From Vibrio coralliirubri (GTDB taxonomy: Bacteria; Pseudomonadota; Gammaproteobacteria; Enterobacterales; Vibrionaceae): DNA of 64,000 nt. Shown here piece after piece: positions 32,988-64,000 of the stretch (position 1 is the stretch's first letter; each line of letters starts with the position of its first letter). The notes beneath the pieces are model-generated. The model was not told where the DNA came from, ran no database searches, and worked only from the letters and a program-made list of their open reading frames with translations. Where the stretch lies: contig NZ_AP025471.1 in the NCBI RefSeq assembly GCF_024347375.1, positions 372,001-436,000 of the forward strand, written 5' to 3'. The translations under genes and the position numbers were made by a program.

Positions 32988-33362
32988 TTAATGAGGACGA
33001 TTGTTATCGAGGCTTAATTCGAAAAGAAGTTGCTCTAAAACCGTTTTTGCAGAGGGTTCTAATGTCCAAATACCGAGCATTCTGTTTAGTGCAGCGCGAT
33101 ACACTCTGTTTTTGAGTAGGAAGGCGAGTGTGCTTGTATCGTTGTTAAAAACGTGTGTTTGTATGATTGTGAGCTCTGGTTTATTTGCGATTTCAATTTT
33201 CTGTAGGTTAAAAGCAGGCAGGAATGAACACTCGTACCAAATCTCAATGATCTCTCGAAGTTCGATTTCTTCTTCAGGCACGTCACAGCCCTGAAATATA
33301 TGATTCTCAGGAATTGCGGATAAGTAAGCTACATCAAGCTTGTCTGCAACGAATGTGTACAT
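32988..33362 (-). CDS. Small hypothetical protein downstream of the secretion genes
   Basis: A 124-residue acidic protein starts at ATG 33362, with AAGGAAG just upstream. It has no signal peptide, membrane helix or motif I recognise, and contains several Cys, Trp and Phe in its first half (WYECSFLPAFN). It lies 108 bases downstream of the ABC transporter on the same strand, so it may be the last gene of the secretion operon. I do not recognise a family. Confidence 0.55.
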   Translation of the reverse strand: MYTFVADKLDVAYLSAIPENHIFQGCDVPEEEIELREIIEIWYECSFLPAFNLQKIEIANKPELTIIQTHVFNNDTSTLAFLLKNRVYRAALNRMLGIWTLEPSAKTVLEQLLFELSLDNNRPH

Positions 33363-33470
33363 TTTCTTCCTTGTTACCTGTGGTATTGGGGCGAATCATC
33401 TCTCTCACTTATTAATTTGTCAATTACATCCATTTCCCTAAATCGCGAATTGTGATTAAGCGTTGAGGTT

Positions 33471-35609
33471 TTAGCTTAAGCTGTTTAAGTATTTGTCTGT
33501 TAAGCCAAAATATTTCAAATTCCCATCCGGCTCTAACACTAAACTCATGTTTGATGTTGCGATCAAACCAGGGTCATTAGTCGAAAAAATCACGGTTTTA
33601 TTCAACAATTTATCGGAGAACAGGCGATTAAAGTATTGAGCGTTTTCTTGCTCTGCACCGTTGAACGGTTCATCAATGATAATCAGAGATTGCTCACAGT
33701 TACCTAGGCCAAGTGCCAAACGCAATTTTTGTTGAATTCCATTCGGGAGACTTTTGCATTTATCCACGCTTAACTGAGTAGCCAAGCCTTCAGGAAGCCA
33801 TTCATCTAATTCAAAGAAGCTGATCATCTCTTGCATCTTGTCTGTTGGAATCAGCCCGTTGTGTAGAATGAAGTTGGTCTCAAGTGAGCCTTCAAAAATA
33901 TGTAAATTGAAAGGAATGTAGTTAATCGACGTGCGATAACGGTAGCTATTGAACTGTTTAATGTTGTAACCATCGACAGATACAGCGCCTTGATAGCGGT
34001 CTTCTAACCCAGCAATGATTGAGATTAAGGTGGTTTTGCCGCAGCCCGTAGGGCCACAAATGACCACTTTGGCACTGGGTGGCACTTTGAAACCAAGGTT
34101 GGTTAAGCCGGTCGCCGCTCCTGCATATCGGTGACTGACACCGCTGCCCACAATGCTGCCTTGGAACTGGCGAATAGGTGGGCTTTTTTCTAAGGTCAAT
34201 TTGTCGTCATTCATCGACATCAGGTTGTTTATCTGTGCTGATGAAGCCTTGATCGATTGGAACTTGGAAATTGAGTTATAGATACCCATGATTGGGCCTA
34301 ACGCTTTCCAAACCAAAATTACGGTCGCGAGCATGGCACCTGCATCAGAAGTGCCTTCCATCACGCCGATTACCGCGGTCACGATACTTGCTGTACCAAT
34401 CACTTGAATCAAACTGCCGCCAGCGGCCTGAATCTTACTGTTCGTTACGGCAACGTTCTCTGCATCGCTGGTGCTTTGCATGTGCGATGCACTGAATCGA
34501 GATTGAACGACACGAAGTAAAGGTAGGCCTTGAATGGTCTTGATACCACGAAGGATTTCGTTCCATTGATACGAGACCATCGCATTGGCGCGCGAACTTT
34601 TGGATGTGGCTTGCGAGTAGATATAGCGCGAGTAAATACAGAACACTAGCATCAGTATTAAACCACCCATTACCACCAATGCCGCTGTACCAGACATCAG
34701 AGCTATGGCGATGATAAATACAATCACAAACGGCATATCAAAATAGCTGAGGGTTGATTCTGCAGTCACTAAGCGTCGGAAGGTATCGATATCTTTCAAA
34801 CGTGCTAGCTGAGAAGAGACACCGGCAGTGGATGTCATCGCATAGGGTAGCCACAGTAGCTTAGATATAACGGCTTGCGAGATGTGCACGGCGAGATCTT
34901 TACCGGAAGTGGCAATGATGTTGACCCGCATTTTCTTAAAGAAGTATTCAGAGAAGCCGACAATGATGGCAAACAGAGTTAACCAATACAGTGTCGCCTC
35001 AGAACTCGAAGTGAGTGCGAAGTTATAAACACTCATAATAAAGAATGGCTGCAATGCACCTAGAATACTGATGACGAAACTCAGAATGATTAAGCTCTTT
35101 AGCTCGTTGTTATAGCGATAGAAAGCGTATTTAATCCAATTACTTCTGTCTTGCGATTCCGGCGGTGGTTCGCGGAACAGACGAGAGTACTCGCTAATAG
35201 AAATCAGCAAGCACGGCTTTTGACACATTGGATATTCAATAGTGTTGTTGTTCGTGTAATCAAACAGCAGCAATTTTCCATCTTTAGTACCTAAGAAGAT
35301 CGCACTTAGATTCTCTATTTCAATAAAGCATGGGTGAGGGTGCTTATCGATATTCTCGAGTGTCTTTAGCTTAGTCACATCACAGCGATACCCAAGACGC
35401 TCGATGGTTGCCGTAAAACTGTCGCTGTCTTTTGGTTTAGGAATAAAAGCGTCACTGAGGATTGCGGGCGTACCTTCCCATTCTAATGCTATCAAGGTGT
35501 AAGCTAAGCCGCGAATCAGCGGCGACTGACCGTAACGTTCATCATAACCACTTGCTTCAAAGTCCAAAACTCGCTGCGGGACATTGTTGAAGTCAACTAG
35601 GATACTCAT
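33471..35609 (-). CDS. Type I secretion ABC transporter with C39-like domain (degenerate NBD)
   Basis: This 712-residue inner-membrane protein starts at ATG 35609, overlapping the previous stop by 4 bp (ATGA). Residues about 1-150 form a C39-peptidase-like domain with no clear catalytic Cys, residues 160-450 hold the membrane helices, and residues from 490 the ATPase. Walker A is GPTGCGKTT and Walker B SLIIIDEPFNG, with its Glu present. The signature reads LPNGIQQKL where LSGGQ is expected. The Q-loop (NYIPFNLHIFEG) lacks the Gln and the H-loop region has FSTNDP with no His. It resembles LapB-like exporters for giant adhesins and probably pairs with the ABC protein encoded just upstream. Confidence 0.88.
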   Translation of the reverse strand: MSILVDFNNVPQRVLDFEASGYDERYGQSPLIRGLAYTLIALEWEGTPAILSDAFIPKPKDSDSFTATIERLGYRCDVTKLKTLENIDKHPHPCFIEIENLSAIFLGTKDGKLLLFDYTNNNTIEYPMCQKPCLLISISEYSRLFREPPPESQDRSNWIKYAFYRYNNELKSLIILSFVISILGALQPFFIMSVYNFALTSSSEATLYWLTLFAIIVGFSEYFFKKMRVNIIATSGKDLAVHISQAVISKLLWLPYAMTSTAGVSSQLARLKDIDTFRRLVTAESTLSYFDMPFVIVFIIAIALMSGTAALVVMGGLILMLVFCIYSRYIYSQATSKSSRANAMVSYQWNEILRGIKTIQGLPLLRVVQSRFSASHMQSTSDAENVAVTNSKIQAAGGSLIQVIGTASIVTAVIGVMEGTSDAGAMLATVILVWKALGPIMGIYNSISKFQSIKASSAQINNLMSMNDDKLTLEKSPPIRQFQGSIVGSGVSHRYAGAATGLTNLGFKVPPSAKVVICGPTGCGKTTLISIIAGLEDRYQGAVSVDGYNIKQFNSYRYRTSINYIPFNLHIFEGSLETNFILHNGLIPTDKMQEMISFFELDEWLPEGLATQLSVDKCKSLPNGIQQKLRLALGLGNCEQSLIIIDEPFNGAEQENAQYFNRLFSDKLLNKTVIFSTNDPGLIATSNMSLVLEPDGNLKYFGLTDKYLNSLS

Positions 35610-37192
35610 TGGTCACCTCCGGTAAGTTTTACGCGTTTGAGGCGATGGTTAAGCTTGTCCATTTTATTGCTGGCGATGATTAGGATTTTGTCATTGGCAC
35701 GATAAGCCGTGCTGGTAAGAACCATTCGCGCGAATTCCTCATCAAACACACAGTCGATATCATCAAATATCAATACACGTTTACTGGCGAGCAGAGCGCG
35801 AACCAATAATAAGGCATAGCCAACTTGGCGTGAGAATGGGTTACGCATATGGCCTTTGAGTTCTGTATAAAAACCGGCAGGGAGTCCATCAATTTGAGCT
35901 TTGATGTTCATGGTTTCACACAGTGCAAACGCCGTGTTATTCAAGCTTGGGCGGAAACAGGTGAGGTTATCGATAATCGTCCCTTCTACGAACGAACTGG
36001 TCTTATCAACCATCAGAACACTGTTACGCCAAACGTTGTAATTGACGTCATCCAAAGGCGTGTCGTTAATCATGATATCGAGTTTGCTATCACTGTTCTG
36101 ACGCGTAATACAGTTAGCGAGGTGGGTTTTACCTGAACCACTTTTCCCTGTCAGCAAATAGGCTTGTCCGAGTTCGAACTCGATGCGCTGCTTTTCAGAA
36201 TACTTAACCGAAATACGTTCTACTTCTGTTGTTTCATGTTGGTGCTCGACAGAGGCTGCTAATTCAAGGAGATCAGCGATACGTTGGATATGGAGTTTGT
36301 TTAACTCCCAGCGGCTAGCGGTGCGCATTACTTGCTGGTAAGGCGCAAAATAACGGTTGGTTAGCATGATGATGGCGGCCATGATGCCTTGACTCGATTC
36401 CATATTGATTACTGCAGTCGCCAATACCACAACGACACAAGCAATGGAGAGCTGTTGGATGAGCGCCAATATTAGGCTGAAGTTCGATTCAATCTGCTCA
36501 TATTTGATGTTCTCCACTTCGCGCTCTTCAACCATTTGTGTCATCAGGCTTTCAACTCGGTACTCCATGTTTCGAGCTTTGATATCAAGTGGGCTAGAGA
36601 TGATCTCAATGATTTTGGAGGTGGTTAACCCTTCGATGTCTGACTTATTCTGTAAGCTACCAATCTTTTGTTTGGAAAGGCTCCACGCAAAAATAGCCAA
36701 GATGACAGAGGCAATCAGAAGGGTAATGCCAGCCCATATGTTGATGAGGCCGATGATGAGGATCGTTATCACACTGACGGCAAGGTTGATAAGCGCTCGA
36801 ACCGATTCTCCACCAAAGAAGGTCTTAAGTTCAGGAATGGTTGAGATTCGTTCTAGGTATTCGCCCGGTTCTAAACGGCGGAATTTAGAGATCTCAGCCA
36901 AACAGATGGATTGAAATACCTTATTGGTTAAGTTGGTCTCAAACTGCCTCATGATGACAGAGGAAATCTTCTCTTCCTGATTTTTTAAGTGATAGTCGAG
37001 GAAGATAGAAATCAAGATAATCGCGAACAATAAGAACAGAGTATCTTGGGCTTGGTTGGGTAACACTCGGTCAAAAATGATCAGAATAGAGAAAGGCAGT
37101 ACCAAGCCAAACAGGGTCGATATTATCGTTGAGAAAGTCAGATAACACTTATCTGCCATGTTGATCTTTTGCGAAAACTGCTCAGTTTGCAT
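35606..37192 (-). CDS. Second ABC half-transporter, no peptidase-like domain
   Basis: The 528-residue product begins almost directly with membrane helices and has no C39-like domain. Its ATPase has Walker A TGKSGSGKTHL and a Walker B-like RVLIFDDIDCVFDEE, with Asp where the catalytic Glu sits. The expected signature position reads RNPFSRQVGYALL, far from LSGGQ, and the H-loop position reads ASNKMDKL. The Q-loop also lacks Gln. It overlaps the tolC-like gene by 11 bp and the next ABC gene by 4 bp. The likely unit is a heterodimer of two unequal half-transporters, which is unusual for type I secretion. Confidence 0.85.
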   Translation of the reverse strand: MQTEQFSQKINMADKCYLTFSTIISTLFGLVLPFSILIIFDRVLPNQAQDTLFLLFAIILISIFLDYHLKNQEEKISSVIMRQFETNLTNKVFQSICLAEISKFRRLEPGEYLERISTIPELKTFFGGESVRALINLAVSVITILIIGLINIWAGITLLIASVILAIFAWSLSKQKIGSLQNKSDIEGLTTSKIIEIISSPLDIKARNMEYRVESLMTQMVEEREVENIKYEQIESNFSLILALIQQLSIACVVVVLATAVINMESSQGIMAAIIMLTNRYFAPYQQVMRTASRWELNKLHIQRIADLLELAASVEHQHETTEVERISVKYSEKQRIEFELGQAYLLTGKSGSGKTHLANCITRQNSDSKLDIMINDTPLDDVNYNVWRNSVLMVDKTSSFVEGTIIDNLTCFRPSLNNTAFALCETMNIKAQIDGLPAGFYTELKGHMRNPFSRQVGYALLLVRALLASKRVLIFDDIDCVFDEEFARMVLTSTAYRANDKILIIASNKMDKLNHRLKRVKLTGGDQ

Positions 37193-38606
37193 TGCGACCT
37201 CCTTTCCTCAATGACTCCGTTGAGAGAAGGTGTTTAGGCACCAAATCTTGATTGTCTCGTCCCTCAATATCGCTCATCAATTGCATGATGCTCTCTATCG
37301 ATTGAATTGAGAGTATGCCTTTAGTTTGCTCAAGCTTGATGGTCTCGATGATGTAGTCGTATCGTGCGCTTTCATAGTCTCTCAAAGCGCTGAACAATTT
37401 ACTTTCCGCCGCCAGCAAGTCGGTGATGGTACGCGTGCCTAATTGGTAGGCTCTTTGGATCCCTTTATAAGAGGCGTAGTTGGCGCGAATGATGTTTTCG
37501 TAACTGCTTATAGACTGCGAGAAATCGTTAATGTTGAGCACTGATGTATTCACACTGTTACGTGTGGTGTAAAGCGAATCTTGGTAAAGCAGCTCAGTAC
37601 GTTCGATGGCCGTCGATGATTTTTGATAACCATAGTAATCAGAACCACCAGACAAGATAGGCACGGCGAGGTTTAAGCCAACACTGGTTGAGTTACTTTC
37701 ACCTGTCGCTGTAATGTCGGTTTTATCGTAGTTATTGGCGTCATCGTGTCGATAGCTGGCTGAAAGCGACACGGTCGGTAAGAAATTCGAACCGCTCTCT
37801 TTCAAGCTTCTGCGGCTTCTTTCTACGTTTTTCTTTGCTACCAACAAGTCGTTATTCAGCTTTAATGCTTGATCCATAATTGCGCGTTGTTCGGTTTCGT
37901 TGATCTCTTTTAAAGGCACGCTTTCGTATATGTCTTGCGACGGAGTAATAGGGTATTGAATTTGAATAGAGAGCCCGTTGAGAATGACACGTCGATCTTT
38001 CTGCAAGGTTCTTAATCGGTTCGACACACCTTCTTTCTGAGCAATCACTTCGTACAGCTCACTGGCTGCGGTGTTACCCAGCTCTACATTGCGTCGCATT
38101 TGGTGTTCACGCGTTTCGGACGATTTAAGTTCAACCTTGGTCGCTTTAATTTGGGCGTTATTTTTCAAATACTCAAAGTATTGAGAACCGATTTCCGAAA
38201 TGGTGCTTTGGACTTTGTTCTCGTGTTTAATCTCTTCAATATTGAAGTCGAGTTTTGCCGTCCCATATTTAAAAATGTCACCAAGATTGAATATGGATTG
38301 GGATAAAGAAAGACTGTAGCTATTTGAGTTATAGCTAGAGGTTTCATCGGGTACGCTCGATAGTAAGGTTTCATTCTCGTTCCATGTGGTATCGGCAGCA
38401 CCATTGAGTGAAGGCAGAAATTTAGAGCGACTAATACCAATGTTGTACTCGTTTTCTTCCACGCCCTTATCACTCGCGCGAAGAGACAGGCTGTTTTGCA
38501 GGCCGAGTTCTACCGCCTCAAGCAGGGTAGTCGCCGATGCTGAAGGTGTCGTGCTGAATGCGAGTGCAGCTATGATGCTGCTAATTAAGTTTCTGTACCG
38601 CCACAT
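37182..38606 (-). CDS. TolC-family outer membrane factor
   Basis: This 474-residue protein has a signal peptide (ISSIIAALAFSTTPSASA) and the two TolC half-repeats: EAVELGLQNSLSLRA near residue 30 and ILSGGSDYYGYQKSST near residue 310, with alpha-helical coiled parts such as YKGIQRAYQLGTRTITDLLA. It supplies the outer-membrane tunnel of the type I system. Its start overlaps the end of the kinase-like gene by 26 bp, so the two are likely translated together. The length is normal for the family. Confidence 0.9.
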   Translation of the reverse strand: MWRYRNLISSIIAALAFSTTPSASATTLLEAVELGLQNSLSLRASDKGVEENEYNIGISRSKFLPSLNGAADTTWNENETLLSSVPDETSSYNSNSYSLSLSQSIFNLGDIFKYGTAKLDFNIEEIKHENKVQSTISEIGSQYFEYLKNNAQIKATKVELKSSETREHQMRRNVELGNTAASELYEVIAQKEGVSNRLRTLQKDRRVILNGLSIQIQYPITPSQDIYESVPLKEINETEQRAIMDQALKLNNDLLVAKKNVERSRRSLKESGSNFLPTVSLSASYRHDDANNYDKTDITATGESNSTSVGLNLAVPILSGGSDYYGYQKSSTAIERTELLYQDSLYTTRNSVNTSVLNINDFSQSISSYENIIRANYASYKGIQRAYQLGTRTITDLLAAESKLFSALRDYESARYDYIIETIKLEQTKGILSIQSIESIMQLMSDIEGRDNQDLVPKHLLSTESLRKGGRNAN

Positions 38607-40815: not shown

Positions 40816-42165
40816 TTATCTCTCATCGAAAGCATCCTCGATGGCTGACATCACAGGTTTCGCAGCGTATTCGATCACGCGACGCGAGCCTGTTTTCACA
40901 TCGGCGGTAAACTCCATGTAAGGTGATAACTTGTATTGAGTGCCTCCTCGCTCAAGAAAGTTTCGGTCAATTTCAATCTCTGCTAAATAGAATTCAGCGT
41001 CTTCTTCTTCGTATGATGAACGGCTGATTGAGGCGATGGTTCCCTCAACAAACCCGTATTTTGCAAAGTTATAGGTATCCATTTTCACTTTCACTGCCTG
41101 ACCAATTTCGACAAATCCCATGTCTTTACGTGGGATCTTCGCTTCACCGTGAAGGGAGTTATTGATCGGTGCGATATCGGCGATACTTTCTCCTGGCGGA
41201 ATCACAGCAGAACGGAAATTGAAGTGAAGTTTGTCGACCACACCATCGACTGGCGAGTAGACGACTAGGCGATCAACCTTGTCGGAATGCTGCGGTTGTA
41301 AGATTCGCTTCAGCTTGAGGTCTTTATTCGCTTGAATGATTTGCGCTTGATACTCAGAGTTTCTGTTCTCAACCAAGTCACGGTGTTGCTTTTCAAGCTT
41401 GTCGAGTTGGAAGCGCTCATTCATCACCGATTCGTCAAGGTTCTCAATCTCACGCACCATATTCGACTCTTGTACTTTCATGTTAAGAACGTCGACATAA
41501 GACGCCATCTCTTCTTTATAGAGGGTGTTTTTGATGTTGAGCTGCTTACGTATCAGAGAGAGTTGATTCTCTGAACTTTTGCGACGCTTTAACATTGAAC
41601 TGATTAATGAGTTCTTGTGCTTAATATCGTGAGTGATGAGTTCTTCATTTGAACGGTTTTTAGAGAACTCTTGCCTCCAGGTATTCATGTTGACGTGAAC
41701 TTGCTCAGGGTATTTCTCAATGAAGGCGTCGAAGTTAGGTTCTACCATATCGCGTAAGCTTTCATAACGAATCTTATCGAGCTCTATCTGAATAATTTCA
41801 GTATTCACGGTATCAAGTTGAGTGTTGCGGTCGAGTGAGCGTATTCGAGCGATAGGTTGGCCCTCATATACGACTTCACCTTTCCTGACTAACAATTCTT
41901 CTAATATCCCGCCTTCTAAATGTTGAACTTTCTCAACATCCGATTCCAATAGCAGTTCGCCACGTACAGAAACAACAATGTCGATACGTGCTTGTGACGC
42001 CACCGCAATAGCGACCAAAGCGAGCAAGAATATAATGAGCAACGTTTTGTGAACGCTGGTCATGGCACTAGCAAGCACAATAGTGTCATCAGCTGTGACC
42101 TTAGAAGCCTCGTTATTGGAAACAAGTGCTTTTCTGAGGTGATGTTCTATTTGGTTATTGCTCAT
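40816..42165 (-). CDS. HlyD-family membrane fusion protein
   Basis: This 449-residue protein has one membrane helix at about residues 38-58 (LLIIFLLALVAIAVAS), a lipoyl/barrel-sandwich half (VEKVQHLEGGILEELLVRKG), a long coiled-coil hairpin and the second half with VYSPVDGVVDKLHF and ending KTGSRRVIEYAAKPV. It joins the ABC inner-membrane complex to TolC. It lies 12 bp after the HPt-like gene and 3 bp before the kinase-like gene, firmly in the operon. Confidence 0.92.
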   Translation of the reverse strand: MSNNQIEHHLRKALVSNNEASKVTADDTIVLASAMTSVHKTLLIIFLLALVAIAVASQARIDIVVSVRGELLLESDVEKVQHLEGGILEELLVRKGEVVYEGQPIARIRSLDRNTQLDTVNTEIIQIELDKIRYESLRDMVEPNFDAFIEKYPEQVHVNMNTWRQEFSKNRSNEELITHDIKHKNSLISSMLKRRKSSENQLSLIRKQLNIKNTLYKEEMASYVDVLNMKVQESNMVREIENLDESVMNERFQLDKLEKQHRDLVENRNSEYQAQIIQANKDLKLKRILQPQHSDKVDRLVVYSPVDGVVDKLHFNFRSAVIPPGESIADIAPINNSLHGEAKIPRKDMGFVEIGQAVKVKMDTYNFAKYGFVEGTIASISRSSYEEEDAEFYLAEIEIDRNFLERGGTQYKLSPYMEFTADVKTGSRRVIEYAAKPVMSAIEDAFDER

Positions 42166-42528: not shown

Positions 42529-42716
42529 CGCTCCACTGCCTTAATTGCTTTAATCACAATAACTAAGGATCTTTAAAGGCAGTTTTCAAATTTTTTTTGA
42601 TTCTTTCTCTTTAAAAAGAAATTATGAAAAATGTTGTATAAAAAATTGGTTTTTCAAAATGATGTCCTTTAATGCTTCTAAATACGATCAGTTAGCTAGT
42701 AGCAACGGAGGCTGTA
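42529..42716. promoter_or_regulatory. Divergent control region of the secretion operon and adhesin
   Basis: This 188-bp AT-rich segment separates the two divergent transcription units. A weak -35/-10-like pair on the plus strand, TTGATT at 42598 and AATTAT at 42620, has 16-bp spacing. An oligo-T and an oligo-A run bracket it. The adhesin start has a good ribosome site, GGAGG at 42707-42711. No operator could be identified. Confidence 0.4.
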
Positions 42717-57700: not shown

Positions 57701-60700
57701 TGATGGAGACGCGACGGTTGTTGCTAACGATGACGGCAGCTTTACCATTACGCCAGATGCGAACTTCAATGGTGACATTGACCTAACGTTCGACATTAGC
57801 GACGGTACAGATACGCTGGTTGCGACGGCTGACCTAACCGTTAATCCAGTTAATGACCTTCCACAACCACAAGATCAAACGTTCAGCATCGGCGAAGACG
57901 GCATCTTGAATTTCACTGATGAAGACTTGCTGACAGGTGCGACTGACATTGATGGGGATGACCTATCGGTTGAAGGCGTTACTTACACAGGTGCGGACGG
58001 TGTTCTTACTGATAATGGCGACGGAAGCTACAGCTTTGCGCCAAATGAAAACTTCAATGGTGATGTGAACTTCAGTTTTAATGTGTCAGATGGCACGGAT
58101 ACAGTTCAAGCCAACATTGATGTCAGCGTGACACCAGAGAACGATCCACCGGTTGCAGGTAGCACGTCTTACACCGTTCATGAAGACAACTCAATTACCA
58201 TCAGTGACGAACAGTTACTTGCTAACTCTTCGGACATTGAAGGTGATGTCGCCGTTGACAGCGTGACTTACACTGGCGCTGACGGTGTCTTTGAAGACAA
58301 CGGTGACGGTACTTACACCTTCTCACCAAACGAAAACTTCAACGGAGAAGTTAGCCTTGATGTTGTTGTTACCGACGAAGAGGGCGCAACTGAAGCGACC
58401 ACCGCAGGTATTACTGTACTCGAGGTGAACGATCCACCAATCGCAGGCTCAACGAGCTACTCAGTCAACGAAGACGAAGTTATCACCATCAGTTCAGAGC
58501 AACTGTTGGCGAACGCTTCTGATATCGAAGGTGAAGTGGCGATTGATAGCGTTAACTACACAGGCTCAGACGGTATCTTTACCGACAATGGTGACGGAAC
58601 ATTCAGCTTCGCACCTAACGCGAACTTCGATGGCGATGTAAGCCTTGATGTTGTCGTTACTGATGAAGAAGGCGCAACCGTAGCGACCAACGCAAGCATT
58701 GATGTTCTGCCTGTTAACGATGCTCCGGTATCGGGTGACTTGGCGTACAGCGTGGACGAAGATGGCTCAATTACCTTGAGCCAAGAGCAATTGCTTGCTC
58801 AAGCGAGTGATGTTGACGGCGATGACTTAACAGCGGCTAACCTAACCGTTGGTGGTGATGCGACAGTTACAGCAAACGATGATGGTAGTTTCACTATCAC
58901 GCCAGATGCTAACTTCAATGGCGACATTGATTTAAACTTCGACATTACCGATGGTGATGCGACGCTTCAAGCAACGGCTGACCTAACAGTTAACCCAGTT
59001 AATGACTTGCCAACAGTCGGTGAGCCACAATTTGTGACTCAAGAAGACACCAGCTTTACCTTCACTGAAGAGCAACTACTGCAAAATGCAGGCGACATTG
59101 ATGGCGATAACCTATCGGTTGAAAATGTGGCTTCAGATAGCGGTACTTTGGTTGATAACGGCGACGGTACTTATACATTCGCACCGAATGAAAACTTCGA
59201 CGGCAATGTGAATGTGACGTTCGACGTGAATGACGGTACAGCGACAGTACCAGCAGAAGCGACAATTGATGTTCAATCTGTGGTTGATATGCCAGAGCTG
59301 TCGATTGCTTCTGACCTAGTGATTGCTTCAGACAACTTCGAGTCTGGCTCAAACGGTTGGAATACCGGTACTGAAAGCTCACAAGGCTTCGAATCTGGTG
59401 ACATGCTAGGTCGTATTGGTGGCACTGGTGGCGAGGAGGCCGTAAGCAAAACTTACGATATTCCAAGTGATGTGAGCGAAGTTAATATCTCGTTCAACTT
59501 CTACGAAATTGACTCATGGGATGGTGAGTCGTTCCAAATCTTTGTCGGTGGCGAAGAGCTTACCTCGTTAGATAACTCAGCGTTCCGTACTGAAGATGGC
59601 ACGACAACGTTGTACGATTCAGCGGGCAATGAAGTCGGTGAAGTGGTTCACGGCGTATCGCAAGGTGAAGGTTTCAGTGGTTGGAACGACCAAGCACACC
59701 AAATCAACCTAACGGTACCCGTTGAAGACGGCCAACTTGAATTAGGCTTCGGTTCAACTCTGAATCAAAGCGTGATTGACGAGTCGTTTGGTATCGATAA
59801 CATCGAAATCACAGTGTCTGACGCGGATTACCAAATCATTGGTACTGAAGATACACCTGTACCACTTGATATTGATGCCGCGCTAACCGATACCGATGGC
59901 TCAGAAAACCTCGCTATCTTGATTGAAGATGTGCCAGAAGGTAGCTCACTTTCTGCAGGTACCGATAACGGTGATGGCACTTGGTCACTGCAACCTGGCG
60001 AGCTAGAAGGGCTAGAGTTTATCCCTTCAGGTGACTTCAATGGGGATGTGGTTCTAACCGTGAATGCGACATCGACTGATGTTGATACGGGTACTACCGC
60101 AACGGCAACGCAAGATGTGACTATTCATATCTCTCCAGCGAACGATGCTCCAGAAGTTGATGGTGATATCAGTGCTGTGACAGCCGAAGACAACAGCATC
60201 ACGCTAACGCAAGAACAGTTGCTAGAGCACGCTGTCGACATTGATGGTGATGACCTATCAGCAATCAACCTAACCACTAATGATGAAAATGCGACCGTTC
60301 AAATGAACGACGATGGCAGTTTCACCATTACGCCGAGTGAAAACTTCAACGGTAATATCGAATTTAGTTACGATGTCACCGATGGAGAAGACATGGTTGC
60401 TGCTGGCCTAGACTTGACGGTAACACCTGTCAATGATGCGCCAGAGTTGCAAGATCAAGCATTCACTATTGGTGAAGATGGGGTTCTTAACTTCACTGAC
60501 GCTGACCTGTTAACGGGTGCAACGGATGTTGAAGGTGATGATCTAACAGTCGAAGGTGTGACATACACGGGTGCTGATGGTGTGCTTACCGACAATGGTG
60601 ACGGAAGCTACAGCTTTGCGCCAAACGAAAACTTCAATGGTGATGTGAACTTCAGCTTTGATGTGTCAGATGGCACGGATACGGTTCAAGCCAACATTGA

Positions 60701-63700
60701 TGTGAGCGTGACGCCTGAGAACGATCCACCAGTGGCGGGTAGTACGTCTTACACTGTGCATGAAGACAACTCAATCACGATCAGTAACGAACAGCTATTA
60801 GCCAACTCTTCAGATATTGAAGGTGAGGTTGCGATTGATAGCGTGACTTACACGGGCAGTGATGGTGTGTTCGAAGACAACGGTGACGGCACTTACACCT
60901 TCTCGCCAAACGAGAACTTCAATGGTGATGTGAGCTTAGCGGTTGTTGTTACCGATGAAGAAGGGGCAACAGAAGCGACCACAGCGGGAATCACCGTACT
61001 TGAGGTGAACGATCCGCCAATCGCAGGCTCAACCAGTTACTCAGTCAACGAAGATGAAGTTATCACCATCAGTGCAGAGCAACTGTTGGCGAACTCTTCG
61101 GATATTGAAGGCGAAGTCGCGATTGATAGTGTTACTTACACAGGCGCTGACGGTATCTTTACTGACAACGGTAACGGCACATTCAGCTTTGCACCGAACG
61201 CAAACTTCGATGGCGATGTTAGCCTCGATGTCGTGGTGACAGATGAAGACGGTGCGACAGTAGCCACCAACGCAAGTATTGATGTTCTTCCAATTAACGA
61301 TCCACCAGTATCGGGTGACTTGGCATACAGCATTGATGAAGATGGTTCGATTACTCTGACTCAAGAGCAGTTGCTATCTCAAGCCTCTGATGTGGATGGC
61401 GATGACCTGACCGCAAGCAACCTAAGCGCAGGCGATAATGCAACTGTTGTTGATAATGGCGATGGCACCTTTACGGTAACGCCAGATGCGAACTTCAATG
61501 GCGATATCGACCTAAGCTTTGATATTTCGGACGGCACTGAGTCAATTGTGGCGAACGCCGATCTGACGGTAAACCCAGTCAATGACTTGCCAACGACATC
61601 TGATGTTTACGCGAACGTTGACGAAGATAATGTCATCACTATCACGCAGGAGCAGCTACTTGCGAATGCCGCTGATATTGAGGGCGATGATCTTGTCGCT
61701 TCCGACTTAACCTTAGTGGGTGACGATGCAACGATTGTCGATAACGGCGATGGTACGTTCTCTATCACTCCAAGCGAAAACTTCAATGGCTACATAGACG
61801 TTGCCTACAGCATCAGCGATGGCGACACACCAATTGCCGCTAACTTAGGCTTAACCGTTGACCCAGTTAACGACGCGCCAATTGTTTCTGCTGATGTGGC
61901 GATAACCATTGAAGAAGATGGTTCATACACCATTACTCAAGAAGAGCTCCTACAATTCGCGACTGACATCGAAGACGATGACATGACCGCAATTATTGGA
62001 GAGCAGGGCGATGAAACAACCGTAACCGGTACTGTGTTAGACGCTGAAACCAGTAGTCCAGTGTCTGGTGCAGAAGTCACCCTGACCGACAGTGCTGGCA
62101 ATAGCTACACCACAGTAACGGATGATTCAGGTAACTACTCTGTTACAGGTTCAGTCGTTGACCAAGGCACGGTAACCATTGAGCAAGAAGGTTCAATTAC
62201 CAGTAGCTTCCTTGTCCCTGCGGGCGAAGATGTGAATGGTGGCGTAACCGCTATATCTGAAGTACTTGAAGAAACAGATATGCGTATCGTGGTGACTTGG
62301 GGTGAAAGTCCTCGAGATATGGACAACCACTTATGGCTATACGATACAGAGAATGGCAATGAGCTAGACCATATTTACTACCGCGACATGAGCCATGATC
62401 TTGGTGAAGGTAATGTTGTTCAACAAGATGTGGATGATGTAAATGGCCATGGTCCTGAAACCATTACCATTCCAAACTACCAAGATGCTGACATGCACTA
62501 TTCAGTACATAACTACACCAACAGAAGTTGGGATGTAGATGGTGTTGAAGATGTACAAGTTCAGGTGTTTGTAGGTGATACATTGGTTGAAACCTTCAGC
62601 CCGGATTTATCTGATAACCCATCAGGTGACCACTGGCATGTATTCGATATCGTGAATGGCATCATTGTTCCAAGCCAAGATGTCGGCACTCAAAATGCGT
62701 TCGACTTGCCAACGGCAGAAGAAGCGCTTGCGAATGAAAACGGCATTGATATCTCTGAATTGCTAACCGGCGATGAAGGTGATGACTCTGGTGATACGGG
62801 CGGAAACGAACCAAGTGTTGGAGATGTTTCCATTGAGAACGCGCTTATCACTGACAATGGTGACGGCACTTACACCATTACACCGGAAGAGAACTTCAAT
62901 GGTGAATTCTCGATTAGCTACAACGTAGACGATGGCAACGGTGGGGTTACTCCAGCGGAACTAGACGTGACCGTAACAGCAGTTAACGACCTGTCTGTAA
63001 TCTACGACCACGACTACACCATTAATGAAGATGGCTCGCTGACCTTTACCGATGAACAGCTATTGGCTGGTGCAACGGATATTGACGGCGATGACCTTTC
63101 TGTCGAGTCGGTTAACTACGAAGGCACAGACGGTGTGTTCACGGATAATGGCGATGGTACTTACACCTTTGCGCCAAACGAGAACTTCAATGGTAATGTC
63201 GACCTAACTTACGATGTGAGTGATGGCACTGATGTTGTATCGGCGAATATTGATGTTCAAGTTGTTCCAATCAATGACGTACCGGTAGCGGGTTCTACAA
63301 CTTACAGCGTTGAAGAAGACGGCAGTATCACCCTAAGCGATGCACAGCTTCTAGCGAATAGCTCGGATGTTGAAGGGGAAGTGTTTGTCAGCGATGTAAG
63401 CTACAGCGGCACTGATGGTGTATTCACTGATAATGGTGATGGTACTTACACCTTTGCTCCAAACGAAAACTTTAACGGTGACATCAGTCTTGATATCTCT
63501 GTTATGGATGAAGATGGCGCAACCGCTGAAACAACCGCAGGTATCGACGTCATTGCTGTTAATGACTTGCCAGTTGCAGGTTCAACGACTTACAGCGTTG
63601 ACGAAGATAACGTGATTACCATCAATGAGGCGCAGCTTCTTGCGAACAGCTCAGATATTGAAGGTGATGTATCCGTTAGCGACGTTTCCTACTCAGGCGC

Positions 63701-64000
63701 AGACGGTATCTTCACTGACAATGGTGATGGTACTTACAGCTTCGCACCAAATGAAAACTTCAACGGCAATGTCAGCCTAGATGTCACCGTTGCAGATGAA
63801 GACGGTGCAACCGCTCAAACGACGGCGGGTATTGATGTTATCGCAGTCAACGATGCACCAGTATCGGGTGACTTGGCTTACTCAGTGGATGAAGATGGTT
63901 CAATCACGCTAAGCCAAGAGCAACTGCTTGCTCAAGCATCGGATGTGGACGGCGATGATCTTACCGCTGCCAACCTAACTGCGGGTGATAACGCTACAGT
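42717..64000 (+). CDS. Giant type I-secreted repeat adhesin (5' part, open at window end)
   Basis: ATG 42717 has GGAGG five bases before it, and the frame is still open at 64000 after at least 7,094 residues. The first 220 residues are Gln/Asn/Ala/Gly/Glu-rich (MAGENNQNNQNEDLND) with no signal peptide, as expected for a type I substrate. From about residue 220 the protein is a train of cadherin/VCBS-like repeats of 95-96 residues, each with DEDGSI or EEDGTL, a DxxGD calcium-type motif (SDVEGDDL), a DNGDGTYTFAPNENFNG strand and an ND-APV hinge. Ten 573-bp tandem units come first, then 1149-bp superunits and four non-repeat modules. The C-terminal RTX/secretion signal is outside the window. The divergent operon supplies its likely exporter. 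The protein probably mediates attachment or biofilm. Confidence 0.92.
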   Translation, partial: MAGENNQNNQNEDLNDAVEQTDTNDAGTPSQQQNQQNQQNTIASTIATGAENADAADEVNQALDENPSGAGNAEDASASGAAVQEETPESGSDSDAAQSNVVGGAASEAGSDNAAGSGGGAGAGAQAVGGDNAEAATGGADAEGNEEQGQAARTSAAPSATSSESGDQQVGDELDSQTVEETFAVDVQASDEETISEVEDDFDSETVSETFKIKVESENDAPEAEQDLAYIMDEDGSITFTQEQLLEYASDVDGDELVASNVQVGADATVQDNGDGTFTVVPSADFNGELDLTFDISDGQETISSAIDLTVRPINDAPVPEDKTFEIEEDGTLIFTDADLLTGATDIEGDNLTVEGVTYDGGDGILTDNGNGTYTFAPNENFNGDVNFGFDVSDGTDTVSANIDVSVTAVDDAPVSGDLAYSIDEDGSIRLSQEQLLSQASDVEGDDLTASGLTVGGDATVVANDDGSFTITPDENFNGDIDINFDISDGTNTVQASADLTVNPVNDLPVPQDQQFSVEEDGTLIFTDADLLTGATDIEGDNLTVEGVTYDGGDGILTDNGNGTYTFAPNENFNGDVNFGFDVSDGTDTVSANIDVSVTAVDDAPVSGDLAYSIDEDGSIRLSQEQLLSQASDVEGDDLTASDLTVGGDATVVANDDGSFTITPDENFNGDIDISFDISDGTNTVQASADLTVNPVNDLPVPQDQQFSVEEDGTLIFTDADLLTGATDIEGDNLTVEGVTYDGGDGILTDNGNGTYTFAPNENFNGDVNFGFDVSDGTDTVSANIDVSVTAVDDAPVSGDLAYSIDEDGSIRLSQEQLLSQASDVEGDDLTASGLTVGGDATVTQNDDGSFTITPDENFNGDIDINFDISDGTNTVQASADLTVNPVNDLPVPQDQQFSVEEDGTLIFTDADLLTGATDIEGDNLTVEGVTYDGGDGILTDNGNGTYTFAPNENFNGDVNFGFDVSDGTDTVSANIDVSVTAVDDAPVSGDLAYSVDEDGSIRLSQEQLLSQASDVEGDDLTASGLTVGGDATVVANDDGSFTITPDENFNGDIDISFDISDGTNTVQASADLTVNPVNDLPVPQDQQFSVEEDGTLIFTDADLLTGATDIEGDNLTVEGVTYDGGDGILTDNGNGTYTFAPNENFNGDVNFGFDVSDGTDTVSANIDVSVTAVDDAPVSGDLAYSIDEDGSIRLSQEQLLSQASDVEGDDLTASDLSVDGDATVVANDDGSFTITPDENFNGDIDINFDISDGTNTVQASADLTVNPVNDLPVPQDQQFSVEEDGTLIFTDADLLTGATDIEGDNLSVEGVTYDGGDGILTDNGNGTYTFAPNENFNGDVNFGFDVSDGTDTVSANIDVSVTAVDDAPVSGDLAYSIDEDGSIRLSQEQLLSQASDVEGDDLTASDLTVDGDATVVANDDGSFTITPDENFNGDIDISFDISDGSNTVQASADLTVNPVNDLPVPQDQQFSVEEDGTLIFTDADLLTGATDIEGDNLTVEGVTYDGGDGILTDNGNGTYTFAPNENFNGDVNFGFDVSDGTDTVSANIDVSVTAVDDAPVSGDLAYSIDEDGSIRLSQEQLLSQASDVEGDDLTASDLTVGGDATVVANDDGSFTITPDENFNGDIDISFDISDGTNTVQASADLTVNPVNDLPVPQDQQFSVEEDGTLIFTDADLLTGATDIEGDNLTVEGVTYDGGDGILTDNGNGTYTFAPNENFNGDVNFGFDVSDGTDTVSANIDVSVTAVDDAPVSGDLAYSIDEDGSIRLSQEQLLSQASDVEGDDLTASDLTVSGDATVVANDDGSFTITPDENFNGDIDISFDISDGTNTVQASADLTVNPVNDLPVPQDQQFSVEEDGTLIFTDADLLTGATDIEGDNLTVEGVTYDGGDGILTDNGNGTYTFAPNENFNGDVNFGFDVSDGTDTVSANIDVSVTAVDDAPVSGDLAYSIDEDGSIRLSQEQLLSQASDVEGDDLTASDLTVGGDATVVANDDGSFTITPDENFNGDIDISFDISDGTNTVQASADLTVNPVNDLPVPQDQQFSVEEDGTLIFTDADLLTGATDIEGDNLTVEGVTYDGGEGILTDNGNGTYTFAPNENFNGDVNFGFDVSDGTDTVSANIDVSVTAVDDAPVSGDLAYSIDEDGSIRLSQEQLLSQASDVEGDDLTASDLTVGGDATVVANDDGSFTITPDENFNGDIDISFDISDGTNTVQASADLTVNPVNDLPVPQDQQFSIAEDGTLLFTDADLLTGATDVEGDNLTVEGITYEGTDGVLTDLGEGSYSFAPNENFNGDVSFSFDVSDGTDTVSANIDVSVTPENDPPVAGSTSYTVNEDNSITISDAQLLATSSDIEGDVSIDSVTYSGSDGVLEINGNGTYTFSPNENFSGEIALDVVVADEDGATDSTTAGINVLEVNDPPVAGPTSYTIDEDSVLTFSESQVLLNASDVEGDVELVGISYDGPDGIFTVNGDGTCSFAPNENFNGQVQLDVTIRDEDGAEVETVINVDVLPINDAPVSGDLAYNVNEDGSITLSQDQLLSQASDVEGEDLTASDLTVDGNATVTANDDGSFTIVPDANFNGDIDIQFNITDGTDTVQATADLTVNPVNDLPVPQDQQFSIAEDGTLQFTDADLLTGATDIDGDDLTVEGISYTGGDGVLTDHGDGTYTFAPNENFNGDVNFSFDVSDGTETVSANIDVSVTPENDPPVAGSTSYMVNEDNAITISDEQLLANSSDVEGAVSVDSVTYSGTDGVFQDNGDGSYTFLPNENFSGDISLDVIVADEDGSIDETTAGITVLEVNDPPVAGPTSYTIDEDSVLTFSESQILVNASDVEGDVELVGINYDGSDGIFTVNGDGTCSFAPNENFNGQVQLGVTIQDEDGATVETHINVDVLPINDAPVSGDLAYTINEDSSITLTQDQLLARAGDIDSENLEAINLSTDENATIQHNDDGSYTITPNADYNGDLDLNFDIIDNDGGSVQVGLDITVNPVNDLPQAQDQQFTIEEDGTLLFTDADLLAGASDIDGDELSIENVLYTGADGVLSDNGDGTYSFAPNENFNGDVQFSFDVSDGTDSTSAVIDVSVTPENDPPVAGSTSYTVQEDGQITISDEQLLANSSDVEGDVSLSGVTYSGDDGSFVDNGNGTYTFTPNENFDGDISLDVVVIDEDGATATTTAGIDVIAVNDGPETSGIQAEVDEDNAITITQEQLLANATDVEGDDLTASNLQTNDPDATIVANDDGSFTITHTENFNGELDFTYNISDGENEVLTTLDLTVNPVNDAPEAGDEIFIQAQEDQTVGVTLREEPALRLDQAPENGIIEANVNDEWVVLEVGQEVPADTEVRFIPNDDALANGTHTTQIGTFDDNASVDDWGTEVDPYTREFSDGDLTVTVQSNDDPLGAWNGNTHIGHGIGDTDRQGLSGDEKLTVSVEGQDINEISFHLDGLGGWFMEESRHFTEVEIRAFNDDGELIDSMTYHKEDRSNYETDYTLTVNEPVSYFELGTVQGNGTYVVQNMTVSQTCHDEAVFTSIGVDGSEITETVELNIHAGDNEIELTAELPNITVDTDGSAQFASVVITEEQLLAQASDIDGDDLDIQNLELVGENSEHATLTDNGDGTWTVTPDENFHGEIELGYQVTDGELTDSNIININFESVNDAPIVSGPIVLSTDEDEGITFSADDLLANTTDVEGDTLSISDITYGGDNGELVDNGDGTFTFMPNENFNGEIDIDYKVFDGTDEVATHLDLTVVPVNDVPVPGEPLHTQMLENGSMIIEAKDLLSGATDVDGDILHVENLLLADQTQGTLTDNGDNTFTFEPAEDFYGEVNLTFDISDGQASAPSTARVDVEIVNEGPEVSGPIEAAVDEDGSITITQEDLLANATDVDGDNLEAVNFATNDPNAVVVENPDGSFTITPSADFFGEIEFTYDVTDAIETVAADLNLTVNPINDAPDVPDMSFTTEDGQAITITEAELLAQATDVEGDELSVVNVTSASDTVEVTDNGDGTYTLTPEQGFFGNVDLAFDVSDGTDVVAANIDLKVEFVNDAPEATPMVADVDEDGSILVTQEMLLENASDQDGDELFATSLETNDPNASIVDNGDGTYTVTPSENFNGDIAFTYEVSDGELSTSNDMTLTVNPVNDIPIVAPGLYHIEEDGSILFTQEDLLSGAIDIDGDDLSVTSINYSGDEGTVTDNGDGTFSFVPEEHFSGDLQFSFTVTDGTDEVEQDINVHIEAVADAPDLVITDGDGVNVDDEAILVEPGGIVELNIAAALVDQDLSETLTVTVDGVPEGSVITYDNEGVINNQDNGITSYNDTEITVTFEGETAGYENTAGYYKVDEDGNITGVEIVYENASQVDGGGDLVPGQEQFSFQVAEGESFNLFLIPNGHQHNDFDAMQDGQYEFRAEDGSPANMDTVDPQLVFVAADGTETVIQGQNGDAIFHGGSSSQLNQDGIEHTRTTVNEDGELVYGFEDLYGGGDADYTDFNFTIDVGEVNSQIYSGEVTVGPDGTVNLPTTAIENALQIQLPEDFNEQLEVHVTATATELSNDDSETVSQTIYINATGAHIEHAPEALPVSATVEEDGSIIITQEDLLANARDLDGDQLTALNLATDDESVTITDNGDGTYTLTPDADFNGDVSFTFDVSDGDDVVSTNLELTVSPVNDGPEAQDQTFTVGEDGVLTFNDQDLLTGATDIEGDDLSVEGVTYTGADGVLTDNGDGTYSFAPNENFNGDVNFSFNVSDGTDTVTANIDVSVTPENDPPVAGSTSYTVHEDNSITISNEQLLANSSDIEGEVAIDSVTYSGSDGVLEINGDGTYTFSPNENFNGEVSLDVVVVDEDDAAVSTTAGITVLEVNDPPVAGPTSYTIDEDSVLTFSESQVLLNASDIEGDVELVEINYDGPDGIFSINGDGTCSFAPNENFNGQVQLDVTIQDEDGAQVDTFITVDVLPINDVPVSGDLAYSVEEDGSITLSQEQLLSQASDVDGDDLTASNLIVDGDATVVANDDGSFTITPDANFNGDIDLTFDISDGTDTLVATADLTVNPVNDLPQPQDQTFSIGEDGILNFTDEDLLTGATDIDGDDLSVEGVTYTGADGVLTDNGDGSYSFAPNENFNGDVNFSFNVSDGTDTVQANIDVSVTPENDPPVAGSTSYTVHEDNSITISDEQLLANSSDIEGDVAVDSVTYTGADGVFEDNGDGTYTFSPNENFNGEVSLDVVVTDEEGATEATTAGITVLEVNDPPIAGSTSYSVNEDEVITISSEQLLANASDIEGEVAIDSVNYTGSDGIFTDNGDGTFSFAPNANFDGDVSLDVVVTDEEGATVATNASIDVLPVNDAPVSGDLAYSVDEDGSITLSQEQLLAQASDVDGDDLTAANLTVGGDATVTANDDGSFTITPDANFNGDIDLNFDITDGDATLQATADLTVNPVNDLPTVGEPQFVTQEDTSFTFTEEQLLQNAGDIDGDNLSVENVASDSGTLVDNGDGTYTFAPNENFDGNVNVTFDVNDGTATVPAEATIDVQSVVDMPELSIASDLVIASDNFESGSNGWNTGTESSQGFESGDMLGRIGGTGGEEAVSKTYDIPSDVSEVNISFNFYEIDSWDGESFQIFVGGEELTSLDNSAFRTEDGTTTLYDSAGNEVGEVVHGVSQGEGFSGWNDQAHQINLTVPVEDGQLELGFGSTLNQSVIDESFGIDNIEITVSDADYQIIGTEDTPVPLDIDAALTDTDGSENLAILIEDVPEGSSLSAGTDNGDGTWSLQPGELEGLEFIPSGDFNGDVVLTVNATSTDVDTGTTATATQDVTIHISPANDAPEVDGDISAVTAEDNSITLTQEQLLEHAVDIDGDDLSAINLTTNDENATVQMNDDGSFTITPSENFNGNIEFSYDVTDGEDMVAAGLDLTVTPVNDAPELQDQAFTIGEDGVLNFTDADLLTGATDVEGDDLTVEGVTYTGADGVLTDNGDGSYSFAPNENFNGDVNFSFDVSDGTDTVQANIDVSVTPENDPPVAGSTSYTVHEDNSITISNEQLLANSSDIEGEVAIDSVTYTGSDGVFEDNGDGTYTFSPNENFNGDVSLAVVVTDEEGATEATTAGITVLEVNDPPIAGSTSYSVNEDEVITISAEQLLANSSDIEGEVAIDSVTYTGADGIFTDNGNGTFSFAPNANFDGDVSLDVVVTDEDGATVATNASIDVLPINDPPVSGDLAYSIDEDGSITLTQEQLLSQASDVDGDDLTASNLSAGDNATVVDNGDGTFTVTPDANFNGDIDLSFDISDGTESIVANADLTVNPVNDLPTTSDVYANVDEDNVITITQEQLLANAADIEGDDLVASDLTLVGDDATIVDNGDGTFSITPSENFNGYIDVAYSISDGDTPIAANLGLTVDPVNDAPIVSADVAITIEEDGSYTITQEELLQFATDIEDDDMTAIIGEQGDETTVTGTVLDAETSSPVSGAEVTLTDSAGNSYTTVTDDSGNYSVTGSVVDQGTVTIEQEGSITSSFLVPAGEDVNGGVTAISEVLEETDMRIVVTWGESPRDMDNHLWLYDTENGNELDHIYYRDMSHDLGEGNVVQQDVDDVNGHGPETITIPNYQDADMHYSVHNYTNRSWDVDGVEDVQVQVFVGDTLVETFSPDLSDNPSGDHWHVFDIVNGIIVPSQDVGTQNAFDLPTAEEALANENGIDISELLTGDEGDDSGDTGGNEPSVGDVSIENALITDNGDGTYTITPEENFNGEFSISYNVDDGNGGVTPAELDVTVTAVNDLSVIYDHDYTINEDGSLTFTDEQLLAGATDIDGDDLSVESVNYEGTDGVFTDNGDGTYTFAPNENFNGNVDLTYDVSDGTDVVSANIDVQVVPINDVPVAGSTTYSVEEDGSITLSDAQLLANSSDVEGEVFVSDVSYSGTDGVFTDNGDGTYTFAPNENFNGDISLDISVMDEDGATAETTAGIDVIAVNDLPVAGSTTYSVDEDNVITINEAQLLANSSDIEGDVSVSDVSYSGADGIFTDNGDGTYSFAPNENFNGNVSLDVTVADEDGATAQTTAGIDVIAVNDAPVSGDLAYSVDEDGSITLSQEQLLAQASDVDGDDLTAANLTAGDNAT
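43701..49430 (+). repeat. Ten tandem 573-bp units (two 95/96-residue modules each)
   Basis: Unit starts fall at 43701, 44274, 44847, 45420, 45993, 46566, 47139, 47712, 48285 and 48858, always 573 bp apart with no insertion or deletion. Each unit is a 288-bp A module (TLIFTDADLLTGATDIEGD) and a 285-bp D module (SIRLSQEQLLSQASDVEGD). Most differences are synonymous; a few change amino acids (TVTQ in unit 3, GSNT in unit 6, GGEG in unit 10). Such an array is prone to copy-number change. Confidence 0.93.
49431..51731 (+). repeat. Two consecutive four-module superunits (1149 and 1152 bp)
   Basis: The order is A (EDGT...FTDADLLTG), B (AGSTSYTVNEDN), C (AGPTSYTIDEDSVLTFSESQ), D (SGDLAYNVNEDGS), starting at 49431 and 50580. 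The A and D modules match those of the 573-bp array, but B and C are inserted between them. Confidence 0.85.
52570..53400 (+). other. Non-repeat beta-rich module in the adhesin
   Basis: The train of cadherin-like repeats is broken by about 275 residues including FDDNASVDDWGTEVD, NGNTHIGHGIGDTDRQGLSG, EISFHLDGLGGWFMEES and YFELGTVQGNGTYVVQNM. The composition and length fit a beta-sandwich, possibly carbohydrate binding. The one Cys here is in SQTCHDEAV. The family is not recognised. Confidence 0.6.
55430..56420 (+). other. DUF4114-like module in the adhesin
   Basis: A non-repeat segment contains NLFLIPNGHQHNDFD, DAIFHGGSS and LVYGFEDLYGGGDADYTDFN. The last is close to the DUF4114 signature GFEDLxGGGDxDYND. 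The acidic residues suggest calcium binding. The function of the module is unknown. Confidence 0.65.
56745..59042 (+). repeat. Two further 1149-bp four-module superunits
   Basis: Superunits begin at 56745 (A-B-C-D) and 57894 (A-B-B'-D), and the next block begins at 59043. Both are exactly 1149 bp. In the second, module C is replaced by another B-like module (AGSTSYSVNEDEVITISSEQ). Confidence 0.82.
59277..59830 (+). other. Lectin-like insert in the adhesin
   Basis: About 185 residues begin near DNFESGSNGWNTGTESSQ and include ISFNFYEIDSWDGESFQIF and FGIDNIEITVSD, a jelly-roll-like pattern seen in many carbohydrate- or surface-binding domains. The ligand is not known. Confidence 0.6.
60474..61622 (+). 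repeat. 1149-bp superunit A-B-B'-D
   Basis: It begins at 60474, its D module begins 864 bp later at 61338, and it ends after exactly 1149 bp at 61622. It closely follows the order of the superunit at 57894. Confidence 0.82.
62010..62800 (+). other. Carboxypeptidase-regulatory-like plus DUF2135-like insert
   Basis: The first part (VTGTVLDAETSSPVSGAEVT, then DDSGNYSV) resembles carboxypeptidase-regulatory Ig-like domains. The second (MRIVVTWGESPRDMDNHLWL, GPETITIPNYQ, HYSVHNYTNRSWD) resembles DUF2135/YfaP-like domains. The insert sits inside a single cadherin-like repeat whose two halves lie at about 61914-62000 and 62822-62980. Confidence 0.7.
63027..64000 (+). repeat. Partial superunit running off the window
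   Basis: The A-type start is at 63027 and the D-type start at 63891, again 864 bp apart as in the superunit at 60474. The module is cut by the window end. Confidence 0.75.

Follow-up and report, generated by a model that had tools for sequence, protein, structure and literature searches.

The locus considered here raises the question of what a hybrid-kinase-like protein devoid of its acceptor histidine does inside an operon for type I secretion, placed beside the gene of a giant repeat adhesin. In the accessible parts of the literature, the known envelope control of giant adhesins depends on c-di-GMP in LapD/LapG systems and involves a proton channel in the case of SiiAB. The window, i.e., the whole stretch of DNA that was analysed (64,000 nucleotides), corresponds to C2:372001-436000 of the two-contig genome (G000) of Vibrio coralliirubri. 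An earlier, sequence-only reading had described a giant repeat adhesin divergent from one operon that mixes transport and signalling genes, and both the ORFs and the gene order were found to be as described. The features of the locus are as follows.

28004..29071, minus strand: porin-like outer-membrane protein, below the Pfam cut-off, which often accompanies the hybrid kinase
29073..29549, minus strand: 158-aa protein without an assigned family, which often accompanies the hybrid kinase
29559..32786, minus strand: hybrid kinase with normal motifs, i.e., HisKA (SHEIRTPL), HATPase_c and two receivers
32988..33362, minus strand: 124-aa protein without an assigned family
33471..35609, minus strand: ABC1, T1SS-like ABC permease/ATPase (Pfam) of 712 aa with an N-terminal extension
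35606..37192, minus strand: ABC2, ABC permease/ATPase of 528 aa (Pfam, motifs)
37182..38606, minus strand: TolC-type outer-membrane channel (Pfam OEP over cut-off)
38581..40812, minus strand: degenerate hybrid kinase (DHK), 743 aa (Pfam, AF2 model, alignment)
40816..42165, minus strand: HlyD-type periplasmic adaptor (TIGR01843 over cut-off)
42178..42528, minus strand: HPt-like protein, 116 aa, with a predicted HPt fold and the histidine replaced
42529..42716, no strand: divergent intergenic region
42717..64000, continuing past the window, plus strand: giant cadherin-repeat adhesin

The genes for the HPt-like protein, HlyD, DHK, TolC, ABC2 and ABC1 form, in this order, a tight operon on the minus strand, the first two junctions being gaps of 12 and 3 bases and the other three overlaps of 26, 11 and 4 bases. 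The operon is divergent from the adhesin gene across an intergenic region of 188 bases (42529-42716), which is strongly conserved among 9 genomes (mean column identity of 87%) and contains conserved blocks that may be regulatory sites. A scan for promoters and terminators returned fewer sites than were obtained in shuffles, and no RNA element over threshold was present within the window. The 124-aa protein has a paralogue (E 4e-14) after the adhesin gene, at L051:6442-6795, and the two paralogous small proteins flank the secretion locus, one on each side.

DHK is composed of a transmembrane segment, a helical periplasmic domain, a further transmembrane segment, DHp, a degenerate CA, a pseudo-receiver (residues ~486-607) and a receiver (~617-743). 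Its H-box reads LIGYEIRGIT, with GYE where HE is expected, and the acceptor histidine is thus replaced by Tyr269. Tyrosine was found at this position in 49/49 aligned locus proteins and in 41/41 family proteins (overlapping sets). No Pfam match to HisKA or HATPase_c was obtained for the DHK of the window at E 0.1, and the only domain over the Pfam cut-off was the receiver at 620-733 (E 1e-23). The broken motifs pointed out in the sequence-only reading, i.e., those of DHK and the missing acceptor histidine of the HPt-like protein, were hence borne out. Because the acceptor histidine is a tyrosine in every member examined, DHK, judged by its motifs, cannot be a classical histidine kinase. The C-terminal receiver retains the acidic pair, the phospho-Asp, the Thr and the Lys (D624, D625, D667, T700 and K722) in 41/41 family proteins; the first, pseudo-receiver is without the acidic pair and keeps Asp541 in 40/41. 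Two periplasmic cysteines were invariant in a 30-row alignment and occur in 39/41 family proteins, the remaining two being gapped there. DHK has no recognised output domain, whether DNA-binding or enzymatic.

The family to which DHK belongs is sharply bounded. A search of 5.8 billion sequences, of which the 7,995 candidates sharing most words were scored, returned 41 proteins at 721 bits or more, the next of the scored candidates being an ordinary HisKA + HATPase protein at 119 bits. The closest named relatives were from Vibrio sp. 14G-20 (99%) and from V. splendidus and V. crassostreae strains (98%). Purifying selection on DHK was evident in the comparison with L044, with dN/dS of 0.042 for the whole protein and 0.026-0.084 for the domains with estimable dS; these values rest mainly on L044, because saturation of dS affected most comparisons with L045 and L066 as well as that of DHp with L044. 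The receiver and DHp were the domains least variable by dN.

In the AF2 model of DHK, a first membrane helix and a helical periplasmic part precede a long membrane-crossing helix, after which come DHp, a CA-like part and two receiver-like domains; the mean pLDDT was 78.5, and the pTM of 0.45 places the overall domain arrangement at low confidence. By E-value, the best PDB match of the model was ShkA (DHp-CA-REC-REC; E 4.5e-18), with a TM-score of only 0.30/0.43. The GacS receiver, RetS kinase regions and the RetS-GacS complex were among the first 50 structure matches, and RetS chains were among four sequence matches at E 0.22-0.28, which is the noise level. DHK therefore shares with the RetS/ShkA-type atypical hybrid kinases the DHp-CA core with receivers, the sequence similarity being at the noise level. 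RetS and the ShkA-type kinases act atypically, through binding or through receivers. To our knowledge, none of RetS, the ShkA-type kinases and DivL is encoded inside a secretion operon. DivL is named as a pseudo-kinase in the available part of PMC9430884. Searches of 5.39 million open papers for this arrangement or its parts, with subscription papers largely missing, brought up no type I secretion operon described as having a hybrid-kinase-like subunit.

The linkage of DHK to the secretion genes was evaluated in 48 loci (13 from same-genus genomes and 35 named), all of which were located via DHK and which represent 46 distinct genomes, as L045/L061 and L049/L074 are the same genomes taken twice. 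DHK sits between HlyD and TolC in 48/48 loci, and ABC2 and ABC1 come next in 47/48, the exception (L055) being cut by a contig end. The reading frames of DHK and TolC overlap in 44/48 loci, by 26 bases in the window. A metagenome ORF of 1,230 aa (P0052) fuses DHK to TolC, which may be genuine or may result from a frame error where the two genes overlap. Of the surveys made, only that of 394 genomes of the order is free of the bias from DHK-based locus finding. A DHK profile without the receiver (E <=1e-10) and an ABC1 profile (E <=1e-60) each matched in 15/394 genomes, with at most 3 and 2 first-look candidates, respectively, scored per genome. The two sets of 15 were identical, and at these thresholds no genome among the 394 had ABC1 without DHK. 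The two matches lie within ~6 kb in 14/15 genomes; in the remaining one (G328, a 500-contig assembly with the weakest DHK match) they are on different contigs. The presence of the kinase-like gene in related operons, on which the sequence-only reading depended, was thus upheld, both in the loci found via DHK and in the 394 genomes. The 48/48 synteny, the identical 15/394 genomes and the dN/dS of ~0.04 rule out DHK as a chance or decaying gene. DHK is a constant gene of this putative secretion machine, and the predicted export operon for a giant cadherin-repeat surface protein, with DHK in it, is carried by vibrios and some relatives.

In a sample of 369 genomes of the class, the only ABC1 matches outside the own genome were five distant ones at 223-249 bits. 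The neighbourhoods of two of these relatives were examined (L126 and L127; 249 and 230 bits); both share tandem ABC genes and HlyD with the locus and differ from it in that no DHK or HPt match was present in the 18 kb around each. Since L126 and L127 are without DHK, the latter is not a general requirement of two-ABC exporters. By this comparison, one lineage of two-ABC machines probably acquired DHK and, in the sample, did not lose it.

The locus contains the parts of a type I secretion system, i.e., an ABC exporter, HlyD, TolC and a candidate substrate gene. The ABC and OEP matches were over the Pfam cut-offs and HlyD was over that of TIGR01843, whereas ABC1, ABC2 and TolC were all below the NCBIfam cut-offs for T1SS subfamilies. 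ABC1 remained below those for LssB, HlyB and PrtD (LssB score of 256 vs a cut-off of 693), and its N-terminal extension is C39-like by position only, with no Pfam match. ABC2 is degenerate, with FSRQV as the signature and FDD as Walker B, i.e., Asp-Asp in place of the usual Asp-Glu, and the signature motifs of both ABC proteins are unusual. The sequences suggest a heterodimer of ABC1 and ABC2 with unequal ATP sites. From the position of its gene, we infer that the adhesin is the substrate of this type I machine.

The adhesin is a protein of 8,509 aa in all, with one stop, and its end lies 4,246 bases past the window (L051:6246). It was analysed in three pieces, which contained 37, 25 and 16 stretches of Pfam Cadherin_5 repeats (the last two pieces overlap), with repeat lags of ~96 and 191 residues. 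The Gly/Asp-rich RTX nonapeptide pattern had 0 matches across the 8,509 aa. The N-terminal ~170 aa are of low complexity and carry short conserved blocks that are found again in adhesins as distant as those of Shewanella, Psychromonas and Aliagarivorans. The adhesin gene is divergent from the operon in 46 loci and co-directional in 2. In L067 (V. crassostreae), the adhesin appears as five separate ORFs, broken or misassembled, beside an intact operon. LapG cleaves at TAAG motifs. PAAG and AAAG are further cleavage motifs in large adhesins, and the V. cholerae adhesins FrhA and CraA are under LapDG, according to the available part of PMC6890996. No conserved (T/A/P)AAG site was present in the adhesin N-terminus across the window and the 46 loci with an adhesin start (L083 and L084, in which this start is missing, were left out): the window adhesin has NAAG at 113, and elsewhere TAAG, PAAG, AAAG or SAAG are scattered at differing places. 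An adhesin of the LapA or RTX type was hence ruled out by motif tests, there being neither a conserved LapG site nor RTX repeats.

The sequence-only reading had further stated that LapD/LapG control is not seen. This holds for the locus, as neither LapD nor LapG was found among the ten window proteins scanned, and does not hold for the genome, which contains a LapB/LapD/LapG/LapC set elsewhere. The only genomic match to Peptidase_C93 (LapG), at C2:1730222, was over the Pfam cut-off and below that of the NCBIfam LapG equivalog (216/320 bits); adjoining it are LapD, HlyD and a LapB scoring 280 bits above the LssB cut-off. Since this set has its own LapB, LapD and HlyD, and the ABC1 of the window is far below the LssB cut-off, the strain has a predicted Lap-type set and, separately, the secretion system described here. 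As far as the LapA/LapBCE-LapD-LapG system of Pseudomonas is covered in the accessible sources, it shares with this locus a giant adhesin, type I export and an inner-membrane receptor derived from a degenerate signalling enzyme, which is a GGDEF-EAL protein in Lap and a His-less hybrid kinase with a receiver here. The locus differs from Lap in having two ABC proteins, no LapD or LapG at the locus, no conserved di-alanine site for LapG and no RTX repeats. The SPI-4 SiiE/SiiCDF system of Salmonella, as presented in the available part of PMC12607715, shares a giant adhesin with Ig/cadherin-like repeats, a type I machine of its own and additional proteins in the inner membrane. The latter, SiiA and SiiB, form a proton channel and are not a signalling protein, and there is one ABC protein; loss of SiiA/SiiB harms invasion without stopping secretion (PMC12607715). 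The same available text makes no mention of a receiver or an HPt for SPI-4. SiiE is counted among the RTX adhesins in the accessible part of PMC12153261, and the RTX label is thus used unevenly in print.

The HPt-like protein had no Pfam match and was predicted to adopt an HPt fold (pLDDT of 90.9). Its best PDB match was an HPT domain with a TM-score of 0.82 and a probability of 1.00, at a Foldseek E-value of only 0.11; no match reached 0.001. The acceptor histidine is replaced, by Lys according to the alignment, which rules the protein out as a functional phosphotransfer component in this strain. An operon HPt gene precedes HlyD in 33/48 loci and is missing or decayed in 15/48, with a decayed remnant in L047; the expectation that related operons carry the HPt-like gene was therefore borne out in part. 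Among the 33 operon HPts, the acceptor histidine is present in 9 and absent in 24, as it is in the window protein. The nine His-bearing proteins belong to five Shewanella, Aliivibrio sifiae and a relative, Psychromonas and Aliagarivorans, and 3/3 relatives tested were over the Pfam Hpt cut-off. In a DHK tree of 31 of the 49 rows (L069 and L072, with frame-broken DHK ORFs, and 16 near-identical or redundant rows were left out), the window falls in a clade of 21 rows (support 99/97) without any His-bearing operon HPt; long branches at the base leave the deep order unsure. One loss of the histidine and several losses of the gene would be the simplest reading of the history of the operon HPt. As the HPt histidine is still present in Shewanella, Psychromonas, Aliagarivorans and Aliivibrio sifiae, a working relay was probably lost stepwise. 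The His-less protein is still under purifying selection (dN/dS ~0.10, resting on L044 and L039), and it therefore probably still has a function, which may lie in binding.

Other possible relay components lie outside the stretch covered by the sequence-only reading, namely, the hybrid kinase at 29559-32786 and, past the 3' end of the adhesin gene in the own genome, an intact HPt (HPt2) and a receiver protein, accompanied by an RpoS-like sigma factor. A hybrid kinase of the window type was seen uncut in at least 19/48 loci. This count is a lower bound, as some loci end before the place and the gene is in pieces in L043, and it was limited to ORFs >1,000 aa, since the profile also catches other hybrid kinases via shared receivers. 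In other lineages, different hybrid kinases adjoin the operon. The order HPt2/receiver/sigma after the adhesin was found in 5/10 genomes with the far flank examined; the stretches examined in the other 5/10 gave no such match, in the case of G035 because the contig ends. In L076, a receiver protein, an intact HPt2 and a hybrid kinase come directly after ABC1. HPt2 was present in 11/13 genomes with DHK vs 1/9 without it (22 genomes, with no correction for kinship). Of the 11 copies, four are away from the locus, three of these with only 42-47% identity. G007 and G008 have DHK and a His-less operon HPt with no HPt2 match, and G009 has HPt2 without DHK. The own genome contains 12 Pfam Hpt matches. 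The RpoS-like sigma factor (L051:7014-7910) is below the RpoS cut-off and is also linked in L045, L046, L048, L061, L062 and L068, at a position that differs by clade. In Psychromonas marina, a haem-NO-binding protein (L128:13287-13820) and another hybrid kinase come after the locus. As the presence of the HPt and of the neighbouring kinase varies among the 48 loci, the whole signalling set was ruled out as obligatory. A non-catalytic relay, as proposed in the sequence-only reading, is in keeping with the absence of the acceptor histidine from DHK and, in this clade, from the HPt; it is at variance with the intact DHK receiver (41/41), the HPt histidine of nine loci and the adjoining hybrid kinase with normal motifs. 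The idea is thus too simple and right only in part.

Most likely, DHK serves this type I machine as a dedicated component or regulator controlled by phosphorylation. The loss of the catalytic histidine, together with an intact-looking receiver, suggests phosphorylation as the switch for adhesin export or display. What stays constant is a His-less membrane-spanning protein, an intact receiver and the linkage to an exporter, and a transmembrane receptor for a phosphorylation state would hence be the most economical reading. Phosphate would start at a hybrid kinase, for which the gene at 29559-32786 is the candidate in the window, and would pass via an HPt, originally that of the operon and here probably another one such as HPt2 past the adhesin, to the C-terminal receiver of DHK. 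DHK would then relay its state along the coiled coil and the membrane helices to the HlyD/ABC complex, the response of which would control adhesin export or surface retention. The part that c-di-GMP plays for LapD in Lap systems would thereby fall to the receiver in DHK, and the His-less HPt of the window clade would be a leftover turned binding partner. That the locus is a distinct type I machine for the giant adhesin, with the HPt-fed receiver of DHK controlling export or surface retention, is a proposal for which we judge the chances to be even. In its full form, i.e., a phosphorylation-controlled subunit in which an HPt-fed pseudo-histidine kinase gates the adhesin post-translationally as a counterpart of LapD/LapG, with the HPt progressively disarmed, the proposal is tentative and somewhat doubtful. 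The reading to which we give even chances is supported by the constant position of DHK, its occurrence in the same 15/394 genomes as ABC1, the DHK/TolC frame overlap, the kept receiver residues and the purifying selection, and also by the intact-His HPt directly upstream of HlyD in deep relatives, the relay genes of L076, the HPt2 after the adhesin and the domain layout of the AF2 model, with ShkA as its best PDB match by E-value. Against it, the phosphate source is not constant, as the window-type kinase is seen in only 19/48 loci, and the relay may no longer run in the window clade because the HPt is His-less or lost in most loci. The absence of an HPt2 match from G007 and G008, the HPt2 of G009 without DHK, the two-ABC loci L126 and L127 without DHK and the pTM of 0.45 were also counted against it.

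Alternatively, DHK may act in the control of transcription. Here the His-less DHp would pair with an active hybrid kinase in the manner of RetS, modulating a relay for adhesin or biofilm transcription and not the transporter. The conservation of the DHp helices despite the missing histidine, the RetS kinase region and RetS-GacS complex within the first 50 structure matches (sequence matches being at the noise level), the hybrid kinases adjoining the operon in several lineages and the linked RpoS-like sigma factor would all fit such an antagonist. However, the resemblance to RetS is weak and at the level of the fold, and the linkage of DHK to the transporter (48/48; 15/394) is much tighter than that to any single hybrid kinase (19/48 for the window type, with different kinases in other lineages); we consider the antagonist rather unlikely.

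The same constant linkage to ABC1, HlyD and TolC would be accounted for if DHK were an assembly or scaffold part of the two-ABC machine with a receiver that no longer signals. The overlapping frames, which suggest matched synthesis, and the DHK-TolC fusion ORF P0052, which a frame error would resemble, point the same way. Such a structural subunit is still less probable in view of the five key receiver residues kept in 41/41 proteins, the low dN of the receiver and DHp, and the His-bearing HPt kept in the same operon by nine loci. A receiver whose sole function is to draw phosphate off an HPt that other relays use as well, i.e., a phosphate sink or cross-talk buffer, would agree with the intact receiver, the lack of a recognised output domain and the 12 Pfam Hpt matches of the own genome, but it leaves the strict position inside a secretion operon and the conserved DHp part unexplained and is very improbable.

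If the reading of DHK as a phosphorylation-controlled part or regulator of the exporter is true, two-component signalling would be linked directly to protein export, without transcription. The function of a pseudo-histidine kinase would then be testable in a simple and strictly linked system, in which every step of the relay is retained by some natural relatives and lost by others.
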